A program made the translations under genes and the position numbers. This document shows positions 17,599 to 50,982 of a stretch of 64,000 bases of DNA, piece after piece. Location of the stretch: positions 1-64,000 of IMG/VR virus record IMGVR_UViG_3300025584_000449. The stretch is one strand, 5' to 3'. Position 1 is the stretch's first letter, and each line of letters opens with the position of its first letter. A model generated the notes under the pieces. The model was given only the letters and a program-made list of their open reading frames with translations, searched no databases and was not told the origin of the DNA. The DNA is from a virus.

Positions 17599-18101
17599 AC
17601 CCAACATTAGTAGCTATTACAGCAGCTTTAGAAACATACGATAATGACTCTATTACTAGACTCTATCCTATGTTATCTGATAATGAAGTTAAAAAAATAC
17701 AAGTATTAAATGTATTGCAAACGTCAAGAGCTGCCTATGAGGATATGCATGTTTTTGAAAATGCTGTATTAGTTTTGAATGGCATAGATGCAGATGTTAC
17801 AAAGATTGAAGGCTGTGAGCCAAAGCATATTTGGAAAGCTTTAATTATTATAAAAAATATGCATCCTGATGTAGAACTATCACATGAAATTAAAATGTAT
17901 ATTAAATATATATTTAGTGATTATGGTTATAATTTTTATCCTCCTAATTTTAGTCTTGGGAAAGAGGACATGTTAAAAGATTTAGAATCAGCTGCGTTAG
18001 GTGCTCAGACAGGACCGGAACTAGATGATAATTCAGCATTCGACATTCAACTAACTAGATACTTATTAATAAAAGAGTACTTAACAAGGAGTAACATTTA
18101 A
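17595..18101 (+). CDS. Hypothetical helical protein upstream of portal
   Basis: 168 residues, acidic, alpha-helical by composition, with no recognised motif. It overlaps both neighbours (ATGA at its start, TAATG at its end) and lies directly before the portal gene, where phages often have a head-assembly or packaging protein. Function is not recognised. Confidence 0.55.
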   Translation: MNPTLVAITAALETYDNDSITRLYPMLSDNEVKKIQVLNVLQTSRAAYEDMHVFENAVLVLNGIDADVTKIEGCEPKHIWKALIIIKNMHPDVELSHEIKMYIKYIFSDYGYNFYPPNFSLGKEDMLKDLESAALGAQTGPELDDNSAFDIQLTRYLLIKEYLTRSNI

Positions 18102-19969
18102 TGGCTGTTACTAGACTAACAGAGGCTGGGCTTGGAAATGGGTTAAATGCTCGTAAGTATCCTAATCCCTTCTTTGATATTTCATCTACAATAATACCTA
18201 AAAATATTAAAACTCTTTTTAGTTACTGTCGTAATTTCTTCTATACTAATGGATTTCTACGAAACGTTATAACTAAACTTACAGAGTATCCAATTACAGA
18301 TGTATTATATGTGGGCGAGTTAGATGAGATTACGAAAAAGAAGTATGATTCTTATTTACATGAGTCTTTAAAGATTAAAAGTTTTTTAATCGAGGTTGGG
18401 TTAGACTATTTCACCTATGGTAACTCCTTTATTGCAACACAGTTTAACCCTAAAAGATTCTTAGCATGCCCAAACTGTAAAGAAAAACATCCAATTAATA
18501 AGGTAGAATATAAATTTAGAAGATATAACTTTGAGGGCCCTTGTCCTAAGTGTACAGATTATGTTACATTTAAAGTTGAAGACCAAACTATAATTGATAA
18601 ATCTAATCTAAAATTTGTTAGACTGTCTCCTGAAAATATAGATATAGAGTATAATCCTATTACAGGTGATACTCAATATTACTATTCTATGCCTAATAAA
18701 ATTAAGCAAAGAATAATGAAAGGTGATAAAAGTATATTAAAAAATATACCTATAACCTTTATTGAGTCTTTAAGCGAAAAAAAGAAAATCACATTTAATA
18801 GCGAGAATCTATACCACTTTAAACGACCTACACTAGCAGAAGAAGATATGGGTTGGGGAAAACCTTTGTTACTGCCTGCTCTAAAAGAAGTATATTATTT
18901 ACAGCTTTTAAAGAAGGGTAATGAGGCTATTGCCAATGAGCATATAGTTCCAAAGAAAAGCATCTTCCCTGCAAATACTACAGGCATCGACCCATTTACT
19001 CAAATGAGTCTTGGTAAGTGGCGTTCTAAAATTGAAGAGCAAGTTAATAAGTGGAAAACAGATCCTAATCATATAGGTATCTTTCCTATTCCTATAGGGT
19101 ATCAAGAGCTTGGCGGTAACGCTAAGATGTTAATGCTTACTCCTGAGATGAAGTTTATTGAAGAATCAATAATAAACTCTCTTGGAGTTCCTCTTGAATT
19201 TATTAAGGGCGGAACTACTTGGACAGGGTCTAGTATTTCATTAAGAATAGTTGAGAATCATTTCTTAACTTATAGAGAACTACTCTTAGACTTTGTTAAT
19301 CACTTTGTATTAAGTAAAGTAAGAACACATTTACAATACCCTGATGTAAAAATAAAATTTAAAAAGTTTAAAATGACTGACGACTCAGAAGCTAAACAGC
19401 TTGCTATAAATCTAAATCAAACTGGTAAGATTTCTGATAAGATGCTGCTTGATGAGTTTGGAATAGATGTTATAGAAAATGAGAAACAATTAAAGGCTAG
19501 TAAGAAAGAATACTATGCAGATTTAATTGAGACTAGAAAAGCAGAAGCTGAAGCAGAAGGTATTGCTACAGAAATTATGGCAAGGTATCAAGTACGTGCA
19601 CAGCATATGGCACAGCGTGAGGTACTTAGAGTTAAAACTGAACTATTCCAAGAAGAGTTAGCTCAAGAGCACTCACCTATCCCAGATGATCCTGTAAAGT
19701 TAATAGAAAAATTTGTACAACAGTTAGTACTTTATAATCTTGACGAGCAGGAAATGATGCTTGCACAAATGAAAAAGGATATGCCTATTACAGCGTCTAT
19801 GGTAGTTGAGCAGCTATTATTTATGAATAGACAATATGCAGAAGAGCCAGAAGAAGAGGAAGCAGAAACTCCTAAAAAAGAGGGCGCCCCTAAAAAGAAG
19901 GTAACTAAAAAGGATGAAGTTAAAGTAGGGCCAGATAAAAAGAAAGGACCTACAAAAGGATCAGCATGA
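18101..19969 (+). CDS. Portal protein with inserted zinc-binding module
   Basis: 622 residues. The portal forms the ring at the capsid vertex through which DNA is packed. The order fits large-phage portals: an N-terminal region, a stem/wing core, then FIKGGTTWTGSSISLRIVEN and a long helix with TYRELLLDFVNHFV, and a charged Lys/Glu/Pro tail (about 570-622). Residues C123, C126, C148 and C151 (CPNC and CPKC) form a four-cysteine zinc-ribbon-like insertion. The small ORF at 19966 overlaps its stop (ATGA). The portal call rests on the core pattern and context, not on a search. Confidence 0.75.
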   Translation: MAVTRLTEAGLGNGLNARKYPNPFFDISSTIIPKNIKTLFSYCRNFFYTNGFLRNVITKLTEYPITDVLYVGELDEITKKKYDSYLHESLKIKSFLIEVGLDYFTYGNSFIATQFNPKRFLACPNCKEKHPINKVEYKFRRYNFEGPCPKCTDYVTFKVEDQTIIDKSNLKFVRLSPENIDIEYNPITGDTQYYYSMPNKIKQRIMKGDKSILKNIPITFIESLSEKKKITFNSENLYHFKRPTLAEEDMGWGKPLLLPALKEVYYLQLLKKGNEAIANEHIVPKKSIFPANTTGIDPFTQMSLGKWRSKIEEQVNKWKTDPNHIGIFPIPIGYQELGGNAKMLMLTPEMKFIEESIINSLGVPLEFIKGGTTWTGSSISLRIVENHFLTYRELLLDFVNHFVLSKVRTHLQYPDVKIKFKKFKMTDDSEAKQLAINLNQTGKISDKMLLDEFGIDVIENEKQLKASKKEYYADLIETRKAEAEAEGIATEIMARYQVRAQHMAQREVLRVKTELFQEELAQEHSPIPDDPVKLIEKFVQQLVLYNLDEQEMMLAQMKKDMPITASMVVEQLLFMNRQYAEEPEEEEAETPKKEGAPKKKVTKKDEVKVGPDKKKGPTKGSA

Positions 19970-23686: not shown

Positions 23687-24184
23687 TTAATTATCGCAGT
23701 ACATTAGATGAAATCTTGTACATTCGTCTAATAGTACATCTAGTTGGTTAGCAACTACGTCAGCACTTGTGGTATTTAAATACCGCTTAATAGTTACTTT
23801 CCTTGAATTCCAGGAGTATCGAAAGCCAGATCTTTTATCAATAAAAGTATCTATGACTTTACCTGGAAAGATTTGTTCTAAAAATACTTTATATGAAGTA
23901 CCCTTAGATGTTTCGACTCTTCTAAAAGTAAGAGTCGTGTAGTTTATAGCCAACCCGAGATTGTAATTCTGTTCAAAAATCTCAGGCTCTACTGCTCCGA
24001 AGATTGCTCCAGATTCCTCTAAGATAGGAGTCAGCTTACCATAGTGCCCATAAGGAAGTCTAATCTGAAGTCTTGAAAGAGCGGGACCAAATTTTTCTTT
24101 AACTCTTAGGAACTCCTTAAAGGAATTTCTCCAAGCTGTTTGAGAAATTTCTTCCCCCGCGTCGGATTCAATAGTCGCATCCAT
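23687..24184 (-). CDS. Retron-associated hypothetical protein (candidate effector)
   Basis: 165 residues from the ATG at 24184; a TTG at 24193 is also possible. It overlaps the 3' end of the reverse transcriptase by 79 bases in another frame and has no later start codon, so the overlap is real or the product arises by frameshifting from the reverse transcriptase. The sequence is mixed alpha/beta with several aromatic and basic residues (FRYSWNSRKVTIKRYL) and matches no family I recognise. Retrons normally pair with an effector gene next to the reverse transcriptase, and this is the closest candidate. Confidence 0.6.
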   Translation of the reverse strand: MDATIESDAGEEISQTAWRNSFKEFLRVKEKFGPALSRLQIRLPYGHYGKLTPILEESGAIFGAVEPEIFEQNYNLGLAINYTTLTFRRVETSKGTSYKVFLEQIFPGKVIDTFIDKRSGFRYSWNSRKVTIKRYLNTTSADVVANQLDVLLDECTRFHLMYCDN

Positions 24185-25029
24185 TCTATCCAACCCCTTA
24201 GTTGTTGATATTCTTTAGTCGAGATAGTCTCTCCATCTCGTTTTAAGTTATGTAGCTTAGCTTGGAAATTACGCCATCTCCATCTCTCAACTGAAAGTTT
24301 TTCGTTTACTACTACGCCTGTAACTTTCATTCTACGGTTTTGTCTAGTAATTCTAGTCTTCTTGTAGTTTATTTTAAAACCACAAGATCGCGCTATCGTC
24401 TCTATTTCTTGTACCAAATTTTTAGGGTTTTTTGTAGTTTTAGTTTTACGACTAAAATTTACATCGTCAGCATATCTATGATATGTATAGCCTTCCCTTT
24501 TACTAAAGTTTTCTAACTTATAATCTAATCCTATGCAGATTAAATTAGCAAGGGCCGGGCTAGTCGGAGCTCCTTGTGGTACTTGATCGAAATAGGTTAA
24601 TAGTGTAGCTATAATGTTTGCGTCCGCAACATCACACTTAAAGTTAGGATTAATCTTTTTATATCTATTAAAAAGATATAACATACATTTCTTAACTCTC
24701 GTTATTTTAATAGAGTTAAAGAAATCTTTTAAATCCATACTTATTAATATTTTTGCCTTCTTATGTAAATTAGCTCCATCCTTTACATTCCTGTTTTTAA
24801 CAAAGCCATAAGCTTTTTTATGAGGCTCGAACTTATATAAGAATTTATATAATATTGCTTTCTGAACTGCTTTTAGTTCATCATCTGGTGCATCAATCCA
24901 TCTAGTCTTTCCGCTAGATTTTTTAATTGGAAATGACAAATAATGTGCATTCACAGAATTCGCCATTTTAATTAAATCTTTTTCTTTAAATCCTAAAATA
25001 TCGTAAATTGTTACTTTTTTTGTTGCCAT
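24106..25029 (-). CDS. ret: Retron-type reverse transcriptase
   Basis: 307 residues. Motifs in order: an N-terminal FPIKKSSGKTRWIDAP segment, GANLH (85-89), which aligns with the retron NAxxH region, catalytic MDLKDFF (D99), PQGAPTSP (151-158), catalytic YADD (186-189), and VTG (236-238), a mark of retron reverse transcriptases. The QG..SP box rules out the DGR type. The length is usual for retrons. A structured RNA with a1/a2 ends lies directly upstream on the same strand (25061-25237). Known retron enzymes prime from a branching guanosine of that RNA and make multicopy single-stranded DNA. A hairpin lies 8 bases before the ATG. Confidence 0.9.
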   Translation of the reverse strand: MATKKVTIYDILGFKEKDLIKMANSVNAHYLSFPIKKSSGKTRWIDAPDDELKAVQKAILYKFLYKFEPHKKAYGFVKNRNVKDGANLHKKAKILISMDLKDFFNSIKITRVKKCMLYLFNRYKKINPNFKCDVADANIIATLLTYFDQVPQGAPTSPALANLICIGLDYKLENFSKREGYTYHRYADDVNFSRKTKTTKNPKNLVQEIETIARSCGFKINYKKTRITRQNRRMKVTGVVVNEKLSVERWRWRNFQAKLHNLKRDGETISTKEYQQLRGWIEWMRLLNPTRGKKFLKQLGEIPLRSS

Positions 25030-25237: not shown

Positions 25238-26836
25238 TTAAATTCTTCCAAAGATGTCCATCGCAATAGAATCTCCTGGAGAACCCTCATGTATATTCAT
25301 ATTAGAAACTTTCTCAATACGATCTGAGAACTCCTGTAATGACTTTGTATATGATGATCCCCATCCAGAGTCTATCAACACAGAAAAGATCTTAACCTTG
25401 TTAGCGACCTTCCATTCCTTAAGTTCCTTTAAGAAACTGTCTGAAACAGGAGCCTCACCATCAGTGACAAATACAATATCTGCTTTAGAGAAAGCAGAGT
25501 CATCACCAACTTTTTTCATACATTCTTTTAAAGGGGGTTCAAAATCTGTCCCGCCATTTATAAAGTATGTAGCCAAGTCAATAACCTTTTCAACATTATG
25601 CGGGTCACCTTTTAAGAATGTATTTGTATACAAACTTTGGTAACCGGACGCAAAATGAATACAATGAAAATCTCGCTTTTGGGTTCTTGCAATCTCAAGC
25701 ATAGCGAGAGCCACAGACTTCGACCATATTTCAGGATCTCCATTCATGGATCCAGATTCATCTATACAGATGATGATTGGGCCGCGCTGTTTTTTCTCTT
25801 TACCGCTATACTTATACTGTAAGAGTTTACCTTCTGCGAGATCTTTAAAGAATAACCATTTAAGTAATGGGTGTCCTAAACGCATTAATTCGGACGGCAG
25901 AGCTTTAGCTAAATCTCCGCCCATCTCGATTTCATATAATTCGTCTACTCCACGCTTTACTTTCTGGTGTTGTGCAGACATAGCCAAACGCTTAAAGCGG
26001 CCAGCGAGTTCTGCAATCATTTTAAGTTTAGGATCATTTCTTAATTTCTCCAGAAGTTGTAGCTTCTGATCATAAGACTTTCTCCCAAACGTTTCGTCAG
26101 AACCAAGACCCCAGTTACGTATAAGATCATCTACTTCACGAGCTTTGTGAATAGTATTACTTAGCGCTCTCGGCATATTAGTTTGCAGAGGCTTCTCGAC
26201 ATTTTCCTTCATGTCCTTCGCGGCCTCAGCTTGCTTTTTCTTTGCAGCTTCTAAACGTTTCTTAGCTTCTTCAAGAGTTAAAGCTTCCTGGGATTTTCCC
26301 TTCCCTTTTCCATCTTTACCCTCTTCACCTTCATCAGCCGCATCAGCAGCTCCTTGAGCCTCATCAACGGCGTCTTGCGCCTCCTGAGCCTCTTTAGCCG
26401 CATCCTCTGCCGCCTTCTTAGCTTGTTCAAATGCTTCCTTTAACTCTTTAATTAACTCTTTAACTTCGCTTCCTAATACTTCTAAACCTACTCCTGAAGT
26501 AATAGGGTCTAGCCTTGTCATTGTTCTAAGTTCTTTATACTTAGGGTTTTCTACAACAGACCTCATTACTTTGTTATTAAGTAAATAAGGCATTAACATT
26601 CTGGCTTCATCAACTAGTTCAGGAACGTATTTGTATAAAGAAGAATATAAATCCTGCTGTAGCGCCTCAATCTGTGGATAATCATCAACCATCTCTTCAC
26701 GAGTATGTTTTACATTTGCATTATGCTTTAAAGTGTCTTCAAAGTTTTGTTTATCAAATGCATCATGCTCAATTGAATGTTGAGATAATTTTAGATCATC
26801 GGACACAGATGTTTTCTTCTTATTAATTTTTCTCAT
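25238..26836 (-). CDS. ViaA-like VWA domain protein
   Basis: 532 residues. The C-terminal third is a von Willebrand A domain with a MIDAS metal site: DESGS at 359-363, a Gly-Gly-Thr-Asp (NGGTDFEPP) loop and VTDGEAP. The middle part has a long Ala/Glu/Lys coiled coil (about 120-225), and the part before the VWA (LAGRFKRLAMSAQHQKVKRG) matches the ViaA type. In bacteria ViaA partners with the MoxR-family ATPase RavA. Here a RavA-like gene lies 12 bases upstream in the same direction, so the pair probably acts together as a chaperone-like or metal-dependent remodelling complex. The retron RNA begins at its stop codon. Confidence 0.85.
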   Translation of the reverse strand: MRKINKKKTSVSDDLKLSQHSIEHDAFDKQNFEDTLKHNANVKHTREEMVDDYPQIEALQQDLYSSLYKYVPELVDEARMLMPYLLNNKVMRSVVENPKYKELRTMTRLDPITSGVGLEVLGSEVKELIKELKEAFEQAKKAAEDAAKEAQEAQDAVDEAQGAADAADEGEEGKDGKGKGKSQEALTLEEAKKRLEAAKKKQAEAAKDMKENVEKPLQTNMPRALSNTIHKAREVDDLIRNWGLGSDETFGRKSYDQKLQLLEKLRNDPKLKMIAELAGRFKRLAMSAQHQKVKRGVDELYEIEMGGDLAKALPSELMRLGHPLLKWLFFKDLAEGKLLQYKYSGKEKKQRGPIIICIDESGSMNGDPEIWSKSVALAMLEIARTQKRDFHCIHFASGYQSLYTNTFLKGDPHNVEKVIDLATYFINGGTDFEPPLKECMKKVGDDSAFSKADIVFVTDGEAPVSDSFLKELKEWKVANKVKIFSVLIDSGWGSSYTKSLQEFSDRIEKVSNMNIHEGSPGDSIAMDIFGRI

Positions 26837-26848
26837 TAGACGTCCTGT

Positions 26849-27988
26849 CTATGTTGGGTCATACCCGCACATCTCTTGTAAGACTTTACCAAGCAAGGAG
26901 TCTAATTCCCTTTCCTTTGCTAGCACAATCTTTGTGTCTCTTCCTTTGGTCTGGATTTCCTTTCTTAAAGTAGCTAACTTTTTCTTAGCAGTTTTAAGCT
27001 TTGCGGCAATTTCCATACCAAGGGAAATCTTCTTTTGTGAAGTCAGCTTTTTACCTAAAGCATCTTTCGCTGTTTTGTTTGCGATTTCGAAGATTTCATG
27101 AATCTTATTCTTATCAGGATTGGTAAGATTCAGAATCTCCCCATACAGCATTTTATGATCATCGGGATTTGTCCAAAGAGCGTGTTGTAGAAATTCAAAA
27201 TGCTCTTCCTCTACCGAATCACATCCATCAAGCCAAGCCTCAGCCTTAAGGATTTGACAAGCCTGAAAGAAAGTTCTGTCTGTTACGATAATCTTTTTCT
27301 TACTAAGGTTGCGTCTTAGATTAACCAAAACAACCAAAGCCTCTTTAGATAACACAACGTCATTAACTTCTTTCTTAGCTTCCTTAATTTCACTTAAGCT
27401 GATAATTGGCTTAATTTTAGCCATAGAGTTAAGAGCAAGCATCTTCCTGAAGTTGCTGTCTTCCCTAATAGGGCTAATGACAAACTTAACCAAGAACCTA
27501 TCAAATAAGGCCTGAAGTGAGTCATCTTCCTCGGGAATTTCATTAGAGGCTCCAACTACAGAAAGTAGATCTAGCTCCTCAAGTCCTTCATTATAGAACT
27601 TGCGCTCATTTAGAACTGTAAGAAGAGCATTCAAAACACCAGCATTACATTTGAAGATCTCGTCTAGAAATGCAATATTTGCATCAGGCAGTTTGCCTTT
27701 TGTGACTCTGACATACTTATCATTCTGCAGTGCAGAAAGAGAGTAAGGGCCGAATAGTTCTTCTGGCGTACTAAACCTGGTTAACAACCAAGTAAATACT
27801 TCTGCTTCTTCGATCATTGAGTTCAAAGAAGTAATAAGTAGCGACTTTGCCGTTCCTGGAGGTCCTAGCAGCAAAGTATTAGCGCCAGAAACCAATGAAA
27901 CTACTAGTCCGTGAATCTCTTCAGATCTTTCCATAAAGAGACCATCAAGCTTTTCCTCCACTTGGAGGAGCTTTTCTCGTGAATTCAT
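26849..27988 (-). CDS. RavA/MoxR-like AAA+ ATPase
   Basis: 379 residues. Walker A GPPGTAKS (42-49), Walker B NIAFLDEIFK (about 104-113), and a sensor region with GASNEIPEEDDSLQALFDRF that is typical of RavA-type MoxR ATPases. The C-terminus is a lysine-rich coiled coil. MoxR ATPases remodel partner proteins together with VWA proteins, and the ViaA-like partner follows at once. The start is preceded by AAGGAAAATTAA. The two genes form one unit upstream of the retron. Confidence 0.9.
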   Translation of the reverse strand: MNSREKLLQVEEKLDGLFMERSEEIHGLVVSLVSGANTLLLGPPGTAKSLLITSLNSMIEEAEVFTWLLTRFSTPEELFGPYSLSALQNDKYVRVTKGKLPDANIAFLDEIFKCNAGVLNALLTVLNERKFYNEGLEELDLLSVVGASNEIPEEDDSLQALFDRFLVKFVISPIREDSNFRKMLALNSMAKIKPIISLSEIKEAKKEVNDVVLSKEALVVLVNLRRNLSKKKIIVTDRTFFQACQILKAEAWLDGCDSVEEEHFEFLQHALWTNPDDHKMLYGEILNLTNPDKNKIHEIFEIANKTAKDALGKKLTSQKKISLGMEIAAKLKTAKKKLATLRKEIQTKGRDTKIVLAKERELDSLLGKVLQEMCGYDPT

Positions 27989-29278: not shown

Positions 29279-29307
29279 TTGACATTCGCGGTTTGAAAAA
29301 CTATATT
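29279..29307 (+). promoter_or_regulatory. sigma70 promoter for RNA polymerase gene
   Basis: TTGACA (29279-29284), exactly 17 bases, TATATT (29302-29307), 55 bases before the ATG at 29362. It is a near-consensus host-type promoter, which implies that the phage polymerase is made by the host enzyme early in infection. Confidence 0.85.
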
Positions 29308-29361: not shown

Positions 29362-32300
29362 ATGGAAAGCTCTTTAAGGCATTACGAACAGAATAAACTG
29401 ATCCAACAAACAGTTGAATCAATAATAAAAAAACAATTTCCAGTTGAGACGGGCAATCGTAGACTAGAAATAGAAGAACTCACTATAAAAGATGAGTTAT
29501 CTGGCGACGATTTTCCTACTCAAAAAGAAACTAAGCTATCTAGAAAGACTTGGCAAGTCCCTATCAATGCGTCATTTAAGCTAATTGATACAGACACCGG
29601 CAGAGTTATAGATAAATCTAAAGCTATACAAATCGGGTATATACCTAAAATAACTAATAGATTTACAGCTATTATTGAGGGTAATGAGTATCAAACTACC
29701 AACCAGATTAGACGTAAATCTGGGGTGTACGCTCGTGTAAAGGCTAATGGAGAACTAGAGAACGAGTTCAACTTAGCCCAAGGGTTTAATTTCAAGATGC
29801 AGCTAGACCCTATAAGTCAGTTATTCTATATCATCCTAGATAACCGTAAGTATAGACTATGGACCCTCTTACACGTTTTAGGCGTCTCCGATGAGGCTAT
29901 TGAAAAAGAGTGGGGAGCTGAACTATTACTAAAGAATAAAAAAGGCGCTCTAAACACTGAAGTTAGTGAAATGACTAACATCTTTAAAAAGCTATTAAAG
30001 AAAGACCCTAAAGATTACAATGAAGTAATGAAAGGACTTAATCAGTATTTCAAAGAGTATACTAAGGTAGATCCAGAAACAACTAAAATTACTCTAGGTA
30101 AGAGCTTTGAACATGTAACTCCTGAACTATTACTTACTAGCGCTACTAAACTTCTTAATATCGAAAAAGGTAATACTCCTCCAGATGATAGAGATAGTTT
30201 ATTATTTAAACAATTATTTGGTGTAGATGATCTTTTAATAGCTCATTTTGATAAGCAAAAAGACCCCATACTACGTAAAATTAAGAGAAGTCTTGGGCAT
30301 AAAGAAAAAGTAAGAGAGATAGTATCTTCAGGTACATTTGGTAAAAGCATTAAAAAATTCTTTACTGATGGCGATCTTAGTGCCACCCCTCCTCAAACTA
30401 ACCCTGTTACAATTATAGCAGATTGGCGTAAAACAACACCCATGGGTACTGGTGGAATCGGTAGTATGCATGCTATTACTTTAGAGACTAGGGACATACA
30501 CCCTTCCCAGTTAGGATTCTTAGATCCTACAGCTACTCCAGAATCTGGTAAGGTTGGAGTAACTGTTGGCATGGCTATGTCAGTTAAAAAAGAGGGCAAG
30601 AATATAAAGACTCCGGTCATTAATGCTAAGACTGGAAGAACTATTAACTTAACTCCTACTCAAATGTGGGACAGTTACGTAGGGTTCCCTGATCAATATA
30701 CTATTAAAGACAAAGTAGTTAAAGCTAAATCTGCTCAAGTAAAGGTAATGTATAAAGGTGAAGCGGACACCGTGTCTTCCTCTAAAGTTGATTATTATAT
30801 AATGCATGCTAATACCATGTTTTCGTATCCCACGAATCTTGTGCCATTTATAAATAGTGTACAGGGTAATAGAGCAGCGACTGGTGGACGTATGATCCAG
30901 CAGGCCCTTGGATTAGATGATAAAGAAGCCCCGTTAGTACAGGTTAATGCAGATGTTCTATCTGGGGAAAGAACCTTCGAAGACTTCTTAGGTAATTACC
31001 TGAATCCTAGAATAGACCTCACTGTAGATGAGGACGGTAAGGAAAAAAGACTTGGTGGAGAGGTTACCAAGATAACTAAAGACTATATTAATATTACTTT
31101 AGAGAATGGTAAGAAGATTAAAAAAGGATTGTATAATAATTTCCCTCTTAACCAAGACGGATTCTTACATTCTAAAGCAACTGTAAAGGTTGGAGATAAA
31201 GTAAAGTGGGATACCCCTCTAGCAGAGAATAACTATAGCTCTGGTCGTACTCTTTCTTTAGGTAAGAATCTTACTGTAGCGTATATGCCGTGGAAAGGTT
31301 ATAATTTTGAGGATGGTGCTGTTATTACTGAAAGTGCCTCTAAAAAATTAACACACTCTTCTATGCACAAAAAGAATATATTCTTTACTCCATCTAAAAC
31401 TACATTTGATATTGATAAGTTTATAGCATGGTATCCTGGGCTACTTACTGGAGAAAATAAGGCTAAGCTAGATAAAGAAGGTTTGCCTAAAATAGGTGAG
31501 ACGTTCCAGCCAAAAGATGTGTTAGCTGCCTATCTGGAAGAAAGAGAATTATCAGAAGAAGAAAAGATCATTAGAAAAATCAGTAAAGCTGCAAGATTCC
31601 CATTAGCTAAAAAATTAGTAGAGTGGGATGAAGAAGAAGCGGGAACTGTTATTGATATACGAAAGAATGGGAGACATATTGATATTTACTTAAAAGCAAG
31701 TCACCCATTTAAAGAAGGAGACAAGCTTTCAGGTAGATATGGTAACAAATCTATTGTGACTAAAATTATCCCTGACAGTGAAGCACCACATCGTCCAGAT
31801 GGTACGGCTGTAGATATAATGATTAACCCCCACGGGGTCCCTGGACGAATGAATATTGGCCAAATTCTTGAGACTGCTGCAGGAAAGATTGCCAAGAAAA
31901 CTGGAAAGCGTTATGTTGTAAATTCATTTAGTGGAGAAGACAACGCAGATAAAGTTCTAAAAGAAATGAAAGAGCTGAAGATAGAGCCTAACGAAACTCT
32001 TACTGATGGAGCTAAAGGAGATAAGTTTGAAAAACCTATATTTGTAGGCCATCAATACTTTATGAAACTTCGTCACATTGTTAAGAAGAAAGCTGGAGAA
32101 CATTCATTTGGTAATTATGATATTAATGAAACTCCTGTAGGAAAAGGTGCTCAAAAATTAGACCCTATGCTTTCTCATAGTTTACTAGCTCATGGAGCAA
32201 AAGCTAATCTATATGAAATGAGTGCGTATAAGGGAAGAGCAAATGAAGAGTACTGGACTAACTTATCTCTAGGATTGCCCGCACCACCTCCATCAGATAA

Positions 32301-35300
32301 TTTTGTATTTAATAAAATGATTAACTATATGAAGTCTGCTGGAGTTAATGTAAAAAAAGAGGGAAACAAGTTTAGAATATTTCCATTAACTGATACGCAA
32401 GTTAAGGAATGGTCAACAGGTGAATTAAAAGATCCTGGCGCATTACTTGTTGGTAAAAATCTTGCAGAGCGTAAAGGTGGATTATTTGACAGAGAGATGA
32501 CGGGTGGTTTACGGGGCGAGAAATGGTCTCACATAAAACTCATTAAAAAAATACCTAATCCTATGTATGAGTTAGCAATAACCAAGTTACTTGGGCTGAC
32601 TGAGAATAAGTTTAATAAGATTCTAGATGGCTCTTTAGAGTTAGACGGAAAAACAGGCGTAGAAGCAATTCATGCGGCATTAAAAGGTATTGATGTTAAA
32701 AAAGAGCTAAAGAAAACTAAAGCTGAATTAAAAGATGCCTCCGATAGTGCAGTTAATGGTTTAAATAAAAAAGCTAGATATTTAAAAGCTTTAAAAGATT
32801 TAGACTATACTGCAGATGAGGCATACATGACTCAGTATTTGCCTGTACTACCTCCCATCTTTAGACCAGTGTATCCATTACCTAGCGGAGATCTGATGAA
32901 GTCAGACCTCAATGAACACTATAGAGACATAGGAGTTATTAATAATAATTATAAAGCTATTAAAGATAAGCTAGGCAAAGAAGAACAGCTAGAGTACGAT
33001 CAATCTATTTATAAAGCTGTAAAAGCTTATCAAGGATTTATTGATCCTATATCTTTCTCTGGAAAGAAATATAAGGGAGTTATTAAAGAACTATCCGGCA
33101 CACAGGTTAAGCATGGATTAATCCATAGCTCTACGTGGTCGAAGAGGCAGGACTTGTCTGCGAGATCAACTATTACTGTTGAGCCTGATTTAGGTATTGA
33201 TGAAGTAGGTCTCCCGGAAACAATGGCTAAAGAAATATTTAAACCATTTATGATTCAAAAATTAGTTAGTCAAGGTATACCATCATTTAAAGCTAACGCA
33301 GAAGTGCAAGACTTTACTCCTACAGCTAGGCAAGCGCTAGTAGCAGTTATGGAAGAACGCCCGGTTCTTCTTAACAGAGCCCCTAGTCTTCATAAGCACG
33401 GTATACAGGCCTTTCGTCCCTTATTAATTAAGGGTAAGGCTATGCAATTAAACCCAATTATATTTTCTGGGTTTAACGCTGACCTTGATGGTGACACTAT
33501 GGCTGTTCATACACCTATAAGCCAAGAAGCTGTTACAGAGGCGTACGGATTACTGCCAAGCAAGATTATATTTAAACATGGTGATAATGGAGTAGTACCA
33601 GAAATTTCTCAAGAATATATTGTTGGTATGTATTTCTTAAGTAAATTAGGAAAAAATACCAAGAAGGAGTTTAGTTCAATAACAGAGGCTAAAGCAGCTA
33701 AACTACATCCTACTGACGTCTTCTTATTAAATGGTCAGAAAATGACTATAGGTCAGTTCGAGATTAATAAAGTATTACCTAAAGAATTAAAAGATTATTC
33801 TCGAGAGATGGATAAAAAAGCAATTAATAAAATATTTACAATTATAGGTAAGAAGTATAAAGCAGACTTCGCAAAGGTAGCAACAAGATTTAAAGAGTTA
33901 GGAAATCAGTATAGTCATAAACGTAGCTTCACTATTTCTATAACAGATTTTGCACAAGATAAATCTTATAGAGATAAAATTGTTAAAGAAGAAATGCCTA
34001 AAATTAAAAAACTAAAAGGTGATAAGCGTTCAGCAGCTATTCTAGCAATGACTGATAAAATTGAAAAAGCACAAGACAAAGTGTCAATAGGTAAAAATAA
34101 TATCTATGATATGTTAGATGCTGGTAGTATTTCTGGTGGTAAACGTGGCAGTGTTAGACAAATTTTATCTATGCCTGGGCTGTTAGCTAATGTAAAAGGT
34201 GTTCCTTTAAAAAATCCTGTATTAAAATCATATGGAGAGGGCATAGATACTAGTGCTTATTGGAACCATCTGTATGCTGTACGAAAAGGAACTGTTGACA
34301 GATCAGTTAATACGGCAGATTCTGGAGCATTAGACAAGGCTTTAATAGGAGTAACTAGAAGATTACTTATTACTACTGAGGATTGTAAAACAAATAAAGG
34401 TATCTATGTTGATGTAAATTCTAATGATATTTTAGATAGACACTTAGCTAGCTCTATAAAAGGCGTTGCTAAAAAGAATGATCTAGTTGATTCTGCGTTG
34501 CTACTTAAATTAAAATCTGCTGGATTAAAGAAAATAGAGGTAAGAAGCGCCCTTACTTGTGATGCTGCCAGTGGCGTATGTCAGCTATGCTATGGGTTAT
34601 TGCCTAATGGCCAACTTCCTAAAATTGGTGAGAATGTAGGCGTGTTGGAGTCCCAAGCCATTACTGAGAGAAGTACTCAGCTAACTATGAGAACTTTCCA
34701 CACTGGAGGAGCTGTAACCGCTGGAGGTGGTGGTGTCACAGAAGGATTCCCAAGGCTAGTTCAGTTATTAGAGGTGCCAAAGAAATTAAAGGGTAAGGCT
34801 ACGCTAAGTTCTGTAAAAGGAACTGTTAAAGCTATAACAAAAAACTTAGTTGGTGGGTATGACATTAGAATAGAAGGATACGGTACTGAAAATGATAAAA
34901 CGTTTACTATACCTTCTACAAGAAAGATAGTAGTTAAACTTGGAGATAGAGTTACTCCAGGAGATAGATTAACTGATGGAGCTATAAAACCTCAAGAGCT
35001 TGGAGACTACAAAGGGCACCTTGCTGCACAGCAGTATATAGTCGATGAGATAGATAAGATCTATGGCGGTGATTTCCATAAGAAAGGCATAGAGGTAGTA
35101 TTAAGAGGAGTGTCGGATAATGCTGAAATTATTAAAGCACCAGATAATAGTGGGTATTTAAGGGGAGATAAAGCTAGTATTTCATCTTTAGACGCATTAA
35201 ATAAAGATAGACGTAAAGAAGGCCTTGACACAATTAAGTATAAACCTTATTTTAAATCAATTGAGACTCTTAATGTAGATAGTGAAGACTGGTTAACACG

Positions 35301-35433
35301 ATTCTATACTAATAGAATTAAGTCAGCTATCCAAGAAGGAGCATCAAAAGCAGTGTATGGGGATATCGCAGGAAAAGATCCGATACCAGCATACGCTTAT
35401 GGTGACGAGTTTGGTAAGGGAGACTTTTACTAG
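29362..35433 (+). CDS. rpoBC: Single-chain fused RNA polymerase beta-beta' subunit
   Basis: 2023 residues. The N-terminal half is beta-like: GVYARVKANGE in the protrusion, GYNFEDGAVITE (646-657), GDKLSGRYGNKSIVTKI (from 786), GVPGRMNIGQILE, and a beta C-terminal DPMLSHSLLAHGAKANLYEM (from 934). The rest is beta'-like: EKWSHIKLI near its start, DLSARSTITVEPDLG, ERPVLLNRAPSLHKHGIQAF, catalytic NADLDGD (D1374, D1376, D1378), RKGTVDRSVNTADSG (from 1641), a zinc site with C1733, C1740 and C1743, and TQLTMRTFHTGG. The beta' N-terminal zinc ribbon appears lost. It should catalyse DNA-dependent RNA synthesis. No alpha or omega gene is in the window; a sigma-like gene is at 50185. A sigma70 promoter precedes it. 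Confidence 0.95.
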   Translation: MESSLRHYEQNKLIQQTVESIIKKQFPVETGNRRLEIEELTIKDELSGDDFPTQKETKLSRKTWQVPINASFKLIDTDTGRVIDKSKAIQIGYIPKITNRFTAIIEGNEYQTTNQIRRKSGVYARVKANGELENEFNLAQGFNFKMQLDPISQLFYIILDNRKYRLWTLLHVLGVSDEAIEKEWGAELLLKNKKGALNTEVSEMTNIFKKLLKKDPKDYNEVMKGLNQYFKEYTKVDPETTKITLGKSFEHVTPELLLTSATKLLNIEKGNTPPDDRDSLLFKQLFGVDDLLIAHFDKQKDPILRKIKRSLGHKEKVREIVSSGTFGKSIKKFFTDGDLSATPPQTNPVTIIADWRKTTPMGTGGIGSMHAITLETRDIHPSQLGFLDPTATPESGKVGVTVGMAMSVKKEGKNIKTPVINAKTGRTINLTPTQMWDSYVGFPDQYTIKDKVVKAKSAQVKVMYKGEADTVSSSKVDYYIMHANTMFSYPTNLVPFINSVQGNRAATGGRMIQQALGLDDKEAPLVQVNADVLSGERTFEDFLGNYLNPRIDLTVDEDGKEKRLGGEVTKITKDYINITLENGKKIKKGLYNNFPLNQDGFLHSKATVKVGDKVKWDTPLAENNYSSGRTLSLGKNLTVAYMPWKGYNFEDGAVITESASKKLTHSSMHKKNIFFTPSKTTFDIDKFIAWYPGLLTGENKAKLDKEGLPKIGETFQPKDVLAAYLEERELSEEEKIIRKISKAARFPLAKKLVEWDEEEAGTVIDIRKNGRHIDIYLKASHPFKEGDKLSGRYGNKSIVTKIIPDSEAPHRPDGTAVDIMINPHGVPGRMNIGQILETAAGKIAKKTGKRYVVNSFSGEDNADKVLKEMKELKIEPNETLTDGAKGDKFEKPIFVGHQYFMKLRHIVKKKAGEHSFGNYDINETPVGKGAQKLDPMLSHSLLAHGAKANLYEMSAYKGRANEEYWTNLSLGLPAPPPSDNFVFNKMINYMKSAGVNVKKEGNKFRIFPLTDTQVKEWSTGELKDPGALLVGKNLAERKGGLFDREMTGGLRGEKWSHIKLIKKIPNPMYELAITKLLGLTENKFNKILDGSLELDGKTGVEAIHAALKGIDVKKELKKTKAELKDASDSAVNGLNKKARYLKALKDLDYTADEAYMTQYLPVLPPIFRPVYPLPSGDLMKSDLNEHYRDIGVINNNYKAIKDKLGKEEQLEYDQSIYKAVKAYQGFIDPISFSGKKYKGVIKELSGTQVKHGLIHSSTWSKRQDLSARSTITVEPDLGIDEVGLPETMAKEIFKPFMIQKLVSQGIPSFKANAEVQDFTPTARQALVAVMEERPVLLNRAPSLHKHGIQAFRPLLIKGKAMQLNPIIFSGFNADLDGDTMAVHTPISQEAVTEAYGLLPSKIIFKHGDNGVVPEISQEYIVGMYFLSKLGKNTKKEFSSITEAKAAKLHPTDVFLLNGQKMTIGQFEINKVLPKELKDYSREMDKKAINKIFTIIGKKYKADFAKVATRFKELGNQYSHKRSFTISITDFAQDKSYRDKIVKEEMPKIKKLKGDKRSAAILAMTDKIEKAQDKVSIGKNNIYDMLDAGSISGGKRGSVRQILSMPGLLANVKGVPLKNPVLKSYGEGIDTSAYWNHLYAVRKGTVDRSVNTADSGALDKALIGVTRRLLITTEDCKTNKGIYVDVNSNDILDRHLASSIKGVAKKNDLVDSALLLKLKSAGLKKIEVRSALTCDAASGVCQLCYGLLPNGQLPKIGENVGVLESQAITERSTQLTMRTFHTGGAVTAGGGGVTEGFPRLVQLLEVPKKLKGKATLSSVKGTVKAITKNLVGGYDIRIEGYGTENDKTFTIPSTRKIVVKLGDRVTPGDRLTDGAIKPQELGDYKGHLAAQQYIVDEIDKIYGGDFHKKGIEVVLRGVSDNAEIIKAPDNSGYLRGDKASISSLDALNKDRRKEGLDTIKYKPYFKSIETLNVDSEDWLTRFYTNRIKSAIQEGASKAVYGDIAGKDPIPAYAYGDEFGKGDFY

Positions 35434-36103: not shown

Positions 36104-37369
36104 TTAAGGAGAGCCTACATTAGTATCTAGGTCAAGACTAAGATCCTTAGCTGTCTTCACCAACAGCATATTAATCAAGTCCATCCCACCGTTGGCATAC
36201 TCACCATCACCGGAACCACCGATGACAGTCTGAGGTACCCAATCTCCGTTGTAGTTCTGCAAAGCAAGAGCGTAGTTCTGGTGGATATACTTTGCGGCTT
36301 CAATCTTAGCCTCAAGAGCACCATCCGCTTCCATCACAACTCTCTTACGGTAAGCTTCACCATCACCACGGAGTTTATTCGCAGTCTTTTCCTGACCAGC
36401 AGCCTGAGCATCAAGTTCGGCTACACGAAGAAGCTTCTTAGCCTGAAGTTCAGCAACAGCCTTCTCCTGCTCAGCCTTGGTTACAGCCTTAGCCTTAATG
36501 ACTTCCTGCTCCCACTTAGCCTTAGCAGCATCAGCTTCACCCTCTTTGACCGCAGTCAAAGCACGCTGTTCTGCAGCCTTAGCATCAGCCTTTGCAGTCT
36601 GAACATTGATAATCGCTCTACGCTGATCCTCAATCTGACCAGCCACCTCAGGATCATACTCAATGCCATTGATCGCTACGTTCTCAACTCTAATACCATA
36701 CTTGGTAAGAGCCGAAACTTCCTGACGCTTATAGTTTCCAGGAGCGGTAGAATCCTCAACGATCTTAACCTCTGAAACTGTTACTTCATTTCCAGAAATA
36801 GGATCGATAGTCTTTTTATCAACCGTAACGGTCTGATACACGCCATTGATCATCATGTCTTCAATATACCTAAGAAGGTCGGGGCGCTTCTCAGAAGTAG
36901 ATTCCATCGAAGACATTAGAGGACCAGCGTTATATACGCACTTCTCTGCCACTGTGCGAATCAAATCAAAAGAAAGACCCTCTTCAGTCTGATAGTCGTT
37001 ATAGCACATAGTGAGATGCTTCTCATCTAACGGCATATACCAACGGAAAGACAGGGAAAGAGACGCTCCACCCTTATCATTAAACCTAATACGAAGGGCC
37101 TGATTATGCGTTCCTCCCTGATCTTCCTTTGAGGAGAACCATGCCTGAGAGGACTTGTGCCAATCATAGGTCTGCCCAAGTCTCTGAGCTTTCATTCCAG
37201 CAGTGGTATGCCAATGGTAATCACCATCGATGGGATCCACTGTCAGGAGAATCTTATCACCATCAAGCCGCTCAATGAGCTTACTTGACGAAGCCACAAC
37301 GAAAATTAATGCGATGACGATGACAATAAGTCCGCCAATCTTAAATCCGTTAAAACTGTTATTAGCCAT
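36104..37369 (-). CDS. SPFH/prohibitin-like membrane protein
   Basis: 421 residues. An N-terminal membrane anchor (about 12-28, GLIVIVIALIFVVASS) is followed by an SPFH/Band 7 domain (about 35-240) and a long Ala/Glu/Lys coiled coil (about 255-345, QTAKADAKAAEQRALTAVKE onward), then a Gly-rich tail. This order is that of stomatin/prohibitin/flotillin proteins, which oligomerise at membranes and scaffold proteases or membrane domains. Some phages carry such genes; the role here may be to protect or organise the host membrane. The gene's G+C is higher than that of its neighbours, so it may have been acquired. Confidence 0.85.
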   Translation of the reverse strand: MANNSFNGFKIGGLIVIVIALIFVVASSSKLIERLDGDKILLTVDPIDGDYHWHTTAGMKAQRLGQTYDWHKSSQAWFSSKEDQGGTHNQALRIRFNDKGGASLSLSFRWYMPLDEKHLTMCYNDYQTEEGLSFDLIRTVAEKCVYNAGPLMSSMESTSEKRPDLLRYIEDMMINGVYQTVTVDKKTIDPISGNEVTVSEVKIVEDSTAPGNYKRQEVSALTKYGIRVENVAINGIEYDPEVAGQIEDQRRAIINVQTAKADAKAAEQRALTAVKEGEADAAKAKWEQEVIKAKAVTKAEQEKAVAELQAKKLLRVAELDAQAAGQEKTANKLRGDGEAYRKRVVMEADGALEAKIEAAKYIHQNYALALQNYNGDWVPQTVIGGSGDGEYANGGMDLINMLLVKTAKDLSLDLDTNVGSP

Positions 37370-50177: not shown

Positions 50178-50194
50178 TGGGGTATTAAACCCCA
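50178..50194 (-). terminator. Terminator overlapping the sigma-gene stop codon
   Basis: TGGGGT and ACCCCA form a short stem with a T-rich tail on the minus strand (ATTTTTTTATC). The stop codon of the sigma-like gene lies in the loop. Confidence 0.8.
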
Positions 50195-50982
50195 CTTTTT
50201 ACTCTTCTGTTCTTTAGCATTTTGTCCCTGATCTTCATACCCTTAATAATGTTAGCTACGTTTTTTGTAATCACTTGACCATTGCCTTTATTAATCATAA
50301 AGTCAATTTTAGCATTCCCAATATCCTCATCTAACAGTTCGCTTACTAGCTTTCTGTTAGACAATGAATACCTGAGCCAACTTCTTATTCTTACTATCTG
50401 ACCTCTAACCGTATCCTCTGTGGTCTCGGCTATTTTTGCTACTTCAGCGCTGGTGTGTTTTTCATGTCCGTCAAGGCCATAAAGAAGACAAACTAAATCT
50501 TTTTCCCACGGCTCAAGCCAAAGAGTTAACATTTTATTTATTAGCTCTTGTTCTTCTTTAGTCTCGTATTGTATGTCTGAAGTATTACCTACAATAACAC
50601 TCGAATACTCTAAGAAATCATGTTTGTTCACAAAATTTTTCTGCAAAGCTTCAATAGAGAAAGTTCCAATAGGAAGTTGCTTTTTAATTCTAAATGTGTT
50701 AATGATAAAATGTTTAATTTTAACAGCACACCTAACATCAAAAGTAACTTCTTCTTCAGAAGAACCTTTCCACGTGTCAATTGCTTTTAATACTCCCAGT
50801 CTTCCTATTTGCTTAAGATCGTCTATATCGTGTGTTGGTATACAACGGTTAGGTTTGAGATACCTATCATATCTCTTAGCAAAATAGATAATGGCAGGTG
50901 TGGCTATTTTTAATATTTCTTCAATAGCTTTCTTATCTTTATTTTGAGCTTTAAAAATTATAGAGTCTTGAACATTTTCCAC
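50185..50982 (-). CDS. Sigma70-family RNA polymerase sigma factor
   Basis: 265 residues. Region 2 (about 45-100) shows THDIDDLKQIGRLGVLKAID and VTFDVRCAVKIKHFIINTFR, matching the conserved DL-x-Q-x-G-x-x-GL...A and the -10 recognition helix pattern. Region 4 (about 170-225) shows WEKDLVCLLYGLDGHEKHTS with EVAKIAETTEDTVRGQIVRI, the -35 helix-turn-helix type. There is no region 1.1. The C-terminal 40 residues are basic. It should direct the host or phage polymerase to phage promoters; the GGTATAAGAA elements are the obvious candidates. tRNA-Ala lies just upstream. Confidence 0.85.
   Translation of the reverse strand: MENVQDSIIFKAQNKDKKAIEEILKIATPAIIYFAKRYDRYLKPNRCIPTHDIDDLKQIGRLGVLKAIDTWKGSSEEEVTFDVRCAVKIKHFIINTFRIKKQLPIGTFSIEALQKNFVNKHDFLEYSSVIVGNTSDIQYETKEEQELINKMLTLWLEPWEKDLVCLLYGLDGHEKHTSAEVAKIAETTEDTVRGQIVRIRSWLRYSLSNRKLVSELLDEDIGNAKIDFMINKGNGQVITKNVANIIKGMKIRDKMLKNRRVKSGV

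Follow-up and report, generated by a model that had tools for sequence, protein, structure and literature searches.

A bacterial-type RNA polymerase with beta and beta' fused in a single chain in a clade of phages, probably carried in the virion

The window analyzed here, namely, the first 64,000 bases of the 179,902-base IMG/VR virus record IMGVR_UViG_3300025584_000449 (G000), encodes a protein of 2023 residues in which the beta and beta' subunits of a bacterial-type RNA polymerase (RNAP) are joined in one chain. Judged from its sequence, the open reading frame at positions 29362 to 35433 represents a complete beta-beta' core with all of its catalytic residues intact, and the fusion itself can be considered solid. 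The fused gene recurs throughout a clade of phages that includes the cultured Salmonella phage Arash, and we estimate at roughly 0.6 the probability that the enzyme is carried in the virion and works with a sigma factor and promoters of its own. The original prediction, made from the letters of the window, had proposed such a motif-complete fusion and had held it to be notable in a phage; the fusion turned out to be real, while its occurrence as a clade-wide trait and the earlier work on phage RNAPs (PMC7481178) had been missed.

The reading frame, the matches to Pfam, NCBIfam, and the PDB, and the residue map to the Escherichia coli enzyme agree on this assignment, with the profile searches identifying the first half of the protein as beta and the second half as beta'. 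In particular, the Pfam family RNA_pol_Rpb2_6 was found at residues 617 to 920 (E value, 3e-65), Rpb1_2 at residues 1329 to 1397 (8e-30), and Rpb1_5 at residues 1627 to 1902 (1e-25), in addition to Rpb2_3 (2e-7) and to weaker matches to Rpb1_1, Rpb1_3, and Rpb2_2. The NCBIfam models cover residues 198 to 997 (rpoB) and 1081 to 1979 (rpoC; 2e-154), and the PDB matches are bacterial beta' chains, with E values down to 8e-110. Both halves align with the E. coli chains, and both double-psi barrels are present, with the Asp triad and the active-site lysines: D1374, D1376, and D1378 correspond to D460, D462, and D464 of E. coli beta', H905 corresponds to H1237 of E. coli beta, and the bridge helix and the trigger loop are kept. 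At the positions matching D516, H526, and S531 of E. coli beta, which are of interest with respect to rifampicin, the window protein has P, D, and T, and the Arash enzyme has D, N, and T. All the motifs originally quoted occur in the protein; as to the zinc site given as C1733/C1740/C1743, the three cysteines were confirmed, and a fourth one, C1675, which had not been listed, completes it. No recoded stop was found inside the gene. The same alignment revealed no counterpart of E. coli beta' C70, C72, C85, and C88, that is, the zinc-binding domain at the N terminus of beta' is absent from the window protein, and a pattern search retrieved the short form at this site in 37 relative loci. SI3 is absent as well, and the C-terminal region that binds omega is shorter than in E. 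coli.

At the junction, the strand VNVKKE (residues 995 to 1000) is followed by the turn G1001-N1002 and by the strand KFRIFP (1003 to 1008). The AlphaFold2 model, obtained with a 30-sequence alignment, comprises residues 790 to 1446 of the chain; the mean predicted local distance difference test (pLDDT) value is 83.7, both junction stretches are modelled as strands with local values of about 88 to 95, and the modelled fragment matches bacterial beta' structures (E value, 8e-31; TM-score, 0.54). On the basis of this model, we are confident in predicting that the C-terminal strand of beta and the N-terminal strand of beta' form a hairpin with a two-residue turn. Insertions or deletions at the junction occur in none of the 53 aligned phages, and the tails between the beta and beta' genes vary in an alignment of ten bacteria. 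Moreover, the junction is fused in all the 154 relative loci covering it, and the segments that span it are of at least 120 different sequences. Stops are present in 11 of these loci; they are either TGA codons where tryptophan would be expected or are situated past the junction, at the type C split described below. Since every one of these loci is fused and the length at the join does not change, a single old fusion is implied.

The relatives were gathered by a scan with the window protein, which gave 12 loci, by an alignment-based scan, from which the best 80 of 520 relatives were kept, and by a further scan that started from Arash, from which another 80 were kept. The clade comprises hundreds of IMG/VR relatives, mostly uncultured phages, and its cultured members are Arash and the Vibrio phages D69, D181, and D148. 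In full-length relatives, a single frame of about 2020 to 2190 residues encodes both beta and beta', and the 74 relatives of this kind fall into 70 groups at 90% identity and 61 at 70%. An assembly artefact or a one-off fusion is ruled out because contigs of many metagenomes share the uninterrupted fusion, at about 32 to 69% identity. Besides the single chain, we could recognize a type B architecture, with beta-beta'N (about 1470 to 1530 residues) and beta'C (about 600), and a type C architecture, with beta-beta'N1 (about 1130), beta'N2 carrying the catalytic loop (about 390), and beta'C. In the cultured members, the re-split falls inside beta' and never at the beta-beta' junction; because beta' was split again at a later time, the first RNAP protein of these phages is really beta-beta'N, although the databases give it as "beta" or "hypothetical protein." This is the case for Arash (OQ632216), where gp206 and gp216 are both annotated as "subunit beta" but correspond to beta followed by the N-terminal piece of beta' and to the C-terminal piece of beta', respectively.

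The record encodes two sigma factors with counterparts in Arash. The first, sigma-v (Gp010 type; positions 155114 to 155845 of the record; E value of 1e-25 to Arash Gp010), exceeds the Pfam cutoff in region 3 and matches region 4 weakly, and a sigma of this type is present in 20 of 21 clade records, G000 included. The second, a canonical sigma (positions 118996 to 119811 of the record; E value of 1e-21 to Arash gp196), is encoded on the early strand and exceeds the cutoff in regions 1.2, 2, and 4. A possible third sigma-like factor of 265 residues (window positions 50185 to 50982, minus strand) gives weak matches to sigma70 region 2 and HTH_16.

Two motifs are enriched upstream of the G000 genes, namely, GGTATAAG and TTGACA-N17-TATATT, and GGTATAAGA occurs in 12 upstream regions versus 0.1 expected. 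Genome-wide, GGTATAAG is found 23 times on the minus strand of G000 and 4 times on the plus strand, with about 3.5 expected on the minus strand; the split is 25 to 6 in the related record G002 (25 versus about 3.7 expected) and 30 to 1 in Arash (30 versus about 2.4 expected), the genome of which has a GC content of 53% and the RNAP of which is about 31% identical to that of the window. The sites have no conserved -35 element, and those of Arash lie mostly 20 to 60 bases ahead of genes. GGTATAAGAA and longer forms occur with a strand bias in further records, reversed-pattern controls being near zero. Since shuffled-letter controls of the 8-mer reach maxima of 23 to 27 (medians, 4 to 7), the count of GGTATAAG by itself is a weaker argument than its strand bias and position. 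TTGACA-N17-TATATT lies mostly on the plus strand of G000, and the plus-strand genes of Arash show TAAAAT in its place. Promoters recognized by sigma70 normally have T at position -7; because GGTATAAG has G there, this would argue against a role of the host sigma70. We infer from these patterns that GGTATAAG is the early-strand promoter, and the pairing of each motif with a sigma factor proposed below is drawn in the same way.

By analogy with Arash, the window phage probably packages its enzyme. Among the proteins detected in purified particles of Arash, the beta-beta'N protein Gp206 yielded the most spectra (3516, with 128 unique peptides), beta'C Gp216 yielded 1210, and sigma Gp010 yielded 467, and sigma gp196 is absent from the particle list (PMC10585845). 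Furthermore, the RNAP and sigma-v genes are located among structural genes, and G000 has homologs of the Arash portal, terminase, capsid, sheath, and both sigma factors.

We consider it most likely that beta was fused to beta' once, long ago, the beta' zinc-binding domain having been lost, and that the RNAP is carried in the virion: it would be produced late from the strand of the structural genes, enter the particle along with the dedicated sigma-v, and be injected with the DNA. The injected enzyme would transcribe the opposite-strand early genes from GGTATAAG promoters, devoid of a -35 element, and an early-strand gene would then yield the canonical second sigma, which would switch the phage enzyme to the late strand and close the loop. 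The system in its fully self-contained form, with a one-chain RNAP lacking alpha and omega, a packaged sigma, a promoter that phages infecting different hosts have in common, a start independent of the host RNAP, and an early second sigma switching strands, is proposed more tentatively, its chances being in our judgment a little below even.

Some observations weigh against a virion-carried enzyme. The Arash particle list includes replication and metabolic enzymes, and its authors offer either early transcription or carry-over of abundant proteins as reasons, the latter being the unfavorable one (PMC10585845). No terminal repeats were found in the record, which may be incomplete. The class 1 motif is similar to an extended -10 element, the exact GGTATAAG motif is missing from some fused-RNAP records, and, because the promoter before the RNAP gene is sigma70-like, early expression by the host RNAP is possible. 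Possible, too, is a very diverged substitute for alpha or the use of host alpha.

The main rival of the virion-carried enzyme is an early, host-transcribed one that stays outside the virion: the host RNAP would transcribe the RNAP gene early, and the product would then serve middle or late genes, like the non-virion RNAPs of the phiKZ type. The sigma70-like candidate promoter shortly before the RNAP start (Table 1) and the retention of regions 1.2, 2, and 4 in the canonical sigma are in line with this explanation, but the detection of RNAP and sigma in purified Arash particles, the location of the RNAP and sigma-v genes among structural genes, and the single match to the beta barrel family in the whole record make us regard it as unlikely.

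As for the remaining subunits, no alpha or omega gene was detected across the whole record, control genomes giving matches, which extends to G000 what had been noted before for the window; two weak matches to PF01193 in relatives contain stops and were rejected as alpha. In bacterial RNAP, alpha is needed as an assembly platform and the chains are normally separate, and a beta-beta' fusion dispenses with alpha in this role. We consider it most likely that the fused enzyme works without a phage alpha or omega. Alternatively, the fused chain could assemble on a host alpha dimer, perhaps with omega, as a substitute beta-beta' in the host enzyme. Such a hybrid would agree with the bacterial-like core and with the failure to detect a phage alpha in the record; however, the hosts of the cultured members differ (Salmonella for Arash and Vibrio, by phage name, for the others), the omega-binding region is shortened, and the fusion removes the need for the platform, so that we see little room for it.

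The phylogeny proposed as a check on the original prediction places all phage sequences in one group apart from 23 bacteria, with a support of 100. The possibility that the gene was recently acquired from a bacterium or that bacterial DNA contaminates the assembly, as from bacteria with fused rpoB-rpoC, the models of which (NF007172 and NF011417) are among the best NCBIfam matches, was rejected as highly improbable on account of the NF007172 score of 534 bits versus a cutoff of 5372, the tree, and a genome that has portal, terminase, capsid, and tail genes in common with Arash. Within the tree, the type C enzymes branch from inside type B, and the two types form one group among the one-chain enzymes (Shimodaira-Hasegawa-like approximate likelihood ratio test, 96), while the branching near the root does not settle the wholly fused sequences as one clade. 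The simplest reading of these sequences would be one old fusion followed by stepwise re-fragmentation inside beta', in which the single chain was first cut past the catalytic loop and then cut once more. The gp23-type capsid family (PF07068) is matched by all five phages with separate or more fragmented beta and beta' genes (GN1, Carin-5, TM30, Va2, and L013; records G012 [L013], LC779065, MW073017, MN988521, and PV155638), four of which exceed the family cutoff, and by none of 16 records of the fused-RNAP clade, the window record included. Because of this distribution, the fused-RNAP clade and the phages with separate genes look like two phage groups.

Some relatives present peculiarities in the RNAP gene. 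In L042, L043, L045, L046, L048, and L049, in-frame TGA codons stand where the window protein has W and were read as such, and for this reason these phages probably read TGA as Trp. The gene of L097 contains one in-frame TGA, and that of L012 contains several in-frame stops, among them TGA at W positions of the window protein. L049 and L101 carry an insertion of about 330 to 360 residues in beta, between GDKL and SGRYGNK, the start of which looks intein-like in L049; L006 also carries an insertion in this size range, and a homing endonuclease gene interrupts the beta portion in L016 (Vibrio phage D181). Contigs deposited as Staphylococcus, Listeria, or Enterococcus phages (26 to 30% matches) were excluded, since they seem to be DNA of the hosts, and the matches in plasmid records represent rpoBC of bacteria, the records being mislabelled or large.

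With regard to the gene neighborhood (Table 1), portal matches were found in 115 of 159 relative loci, upstream of the RNAP and on the same strand among the rows listed. In the window's own subclade, it is not the portal but a pair of genes for a MoxR-type AAA ATPase and a VWA protein (25238 to 27988, minus strand) that adjoins the RNAP, and seven relatives belonging to this subclade have kept the pair. The window also contains, on the minus strand, a reverse transcriptase gene (24106 to 25029; RVT_1 E value, 2e-25), 21 tRNA genes covering most amino acids (35971 to 58663), and a gene for a 421-residue protein with a weak SPFH/Band 7 match (36104 to 37369). No direct repeats of at least 40 bases were found near the reverse transcriptase and, therefore, nothing points to a diversity-generating element with repeats of this length.

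Table 1. Positions in the window of the RNAP gene, its parts, the portal gene, and the candidate promoters
Feature	Coordinates	Strand	Basis or remark
Single-chain RNAP, beta fused to beta'	29362..35433	+	2023 residues; one ATG-to-TAG frame
Beta portion, residues 1-1001	29362..32364	+	rpoB models stop at residue 997; E. coli beta alignment
Beta active-site lysines K788 and K796 (GDKLSGRYGNK)	31723..31749	+	E. coli beta K1065 and K1073
Beta-beta' junction, residues 995-1008	32344..32385	+	Model, alignment, and relatives
Beta' portion, residues 1002-2023	32365..35430	+	rpoC model 1081-1979; alignment
Site lacking the beta' N-terminal zinc-binding domain, residues 1040-1055, GLFDREMTGGLRGEKW	32479..32526	+	Alignment
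Catalytic NADLDGD, residues 1372-1378	33475..33495	+	Alignment
Second zinc site, C1675, C1733, C1740, C1743	34384..34590	+	Alignment
Trigger loop MRTFH, residues 1776-1780	34687..34701	+	Alignment
Portal protein gene	18101..19969	+	E value of 3e-90 to Arash portal gp204
Class 2 (sigma70-like) promoter candidate TTGACA-N17-TATATT	29279..29307	+	55 bases before RNAP start
Class 1 promoter candidate GGTATAAGAA	29328..29337	-	Upstream of divergent genes
Class 1 promoter candidate GGTATAAGAA	43112..43121	-	
Class 1 promoter candidate GGTATAAGAA	50151..50160	-	
Class 1 promoter candidate GGTATAAGAA	56999..57008	-	
Class 1 promoter candidate GGTATAAGAA	58510..58519	-	
Class 1 promoter candidate GGTATAAGAA	59520..59529	-	
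Class 1 promoter candidate GGTATAAGAA	62743..62752	-	
Class 1 promoter candidate GGTATAAGAA	63329..63338	-	

Bacterial-like beta and beta' subunits have already been described in phages, under the name mReC, in a text that does not mention a fusion (Weinheimer and Aylward 2020, PMC7481178). As in the mReC phages, the window enzyme has bacterial-like beta and beta' with NADxDGD and branches separately from bacteria, and the features that define mReC (subunits of the COG0085 and COG0086 type of at least 800 residues, NADxDGD, and a position apart from bacteria) are found here on one chain, as judged with rpoB and rpoC models instead of COG models. However, the eight capsids detected by those authors are of the gp23 type, unlike those of the fused clade. 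In the literature searched, which left most subscription journals and supplements outside its scope, we found no report of a phage beta-beta' fusion; bacterial-like RNAPs in phages are thus known, and it is the single-chain fusion across a clade that we did not find reported.

The rpoB-rpoC fusions of the Helicobacter and Wolbachia type (NF007172 and NF011417) share the order of beta and then beta', but the model has 2890 positions, some 870 more than the phage chain has residues; in addition, the phage chain is devoid of the zinc-binding domain, its two halves are connected by a tight turn of two residues, and in the tree it falls among phages. The RNAPs of phiKZ- and AR9-type jumbo phages are likewise phage encoded and related to the bacterial enzyme, and their virion RNAP is packaged; different from the one-chain window enzyme, they consist of four or five polypeptides, and no sigma has been found in those phages (PMC7598289, PMC7824862). 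YonO, gp66 of crAss-like phages, and gp64/gp96 of P23-45 also have both catalytic barrels in one chain but are highly diverged (PMC10770324), whereas most of the window protein can be aligned with the beta and beta' subunits of bacteria. The original prediction had rightly set the window RNAP apart from both kinds, as split chains and highly diverged enzymes, respectively. If beta-beta' occurs naturally as one chain and has a sigma of its own, the two proteins would amount to a sigma-dependent enzyme, which would probe what the bacterial core needs and could serve as a tool; if our reading is true, no simpler sigma-dependent holoenzyme of the bacterial type would be known, as this one would be made of two polypeptides.

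Among the closest described systems is the RNAP of Arash (Gp206 and Gp216; PMC10585845), which belongs to the same clade, has the same beta-beta' junction, and also lacks the zinc-binding domain, in a phage with orthologous portal, terminase, capsid, and both sigma factors and with the GGTATAAG motif. Different from the window enzyme, its beta' is split again after the catalytic loop (1525 and 606 residues), its trigger loop is changed, its catalytic motif is AADYDGD, and its late-strand motif is another one. A fusion followed by stepwise re-fragmentation would bear on the origin of the many-piece phage polymerases and, since Arash is a cultured member of the clade, the question can be tested now.

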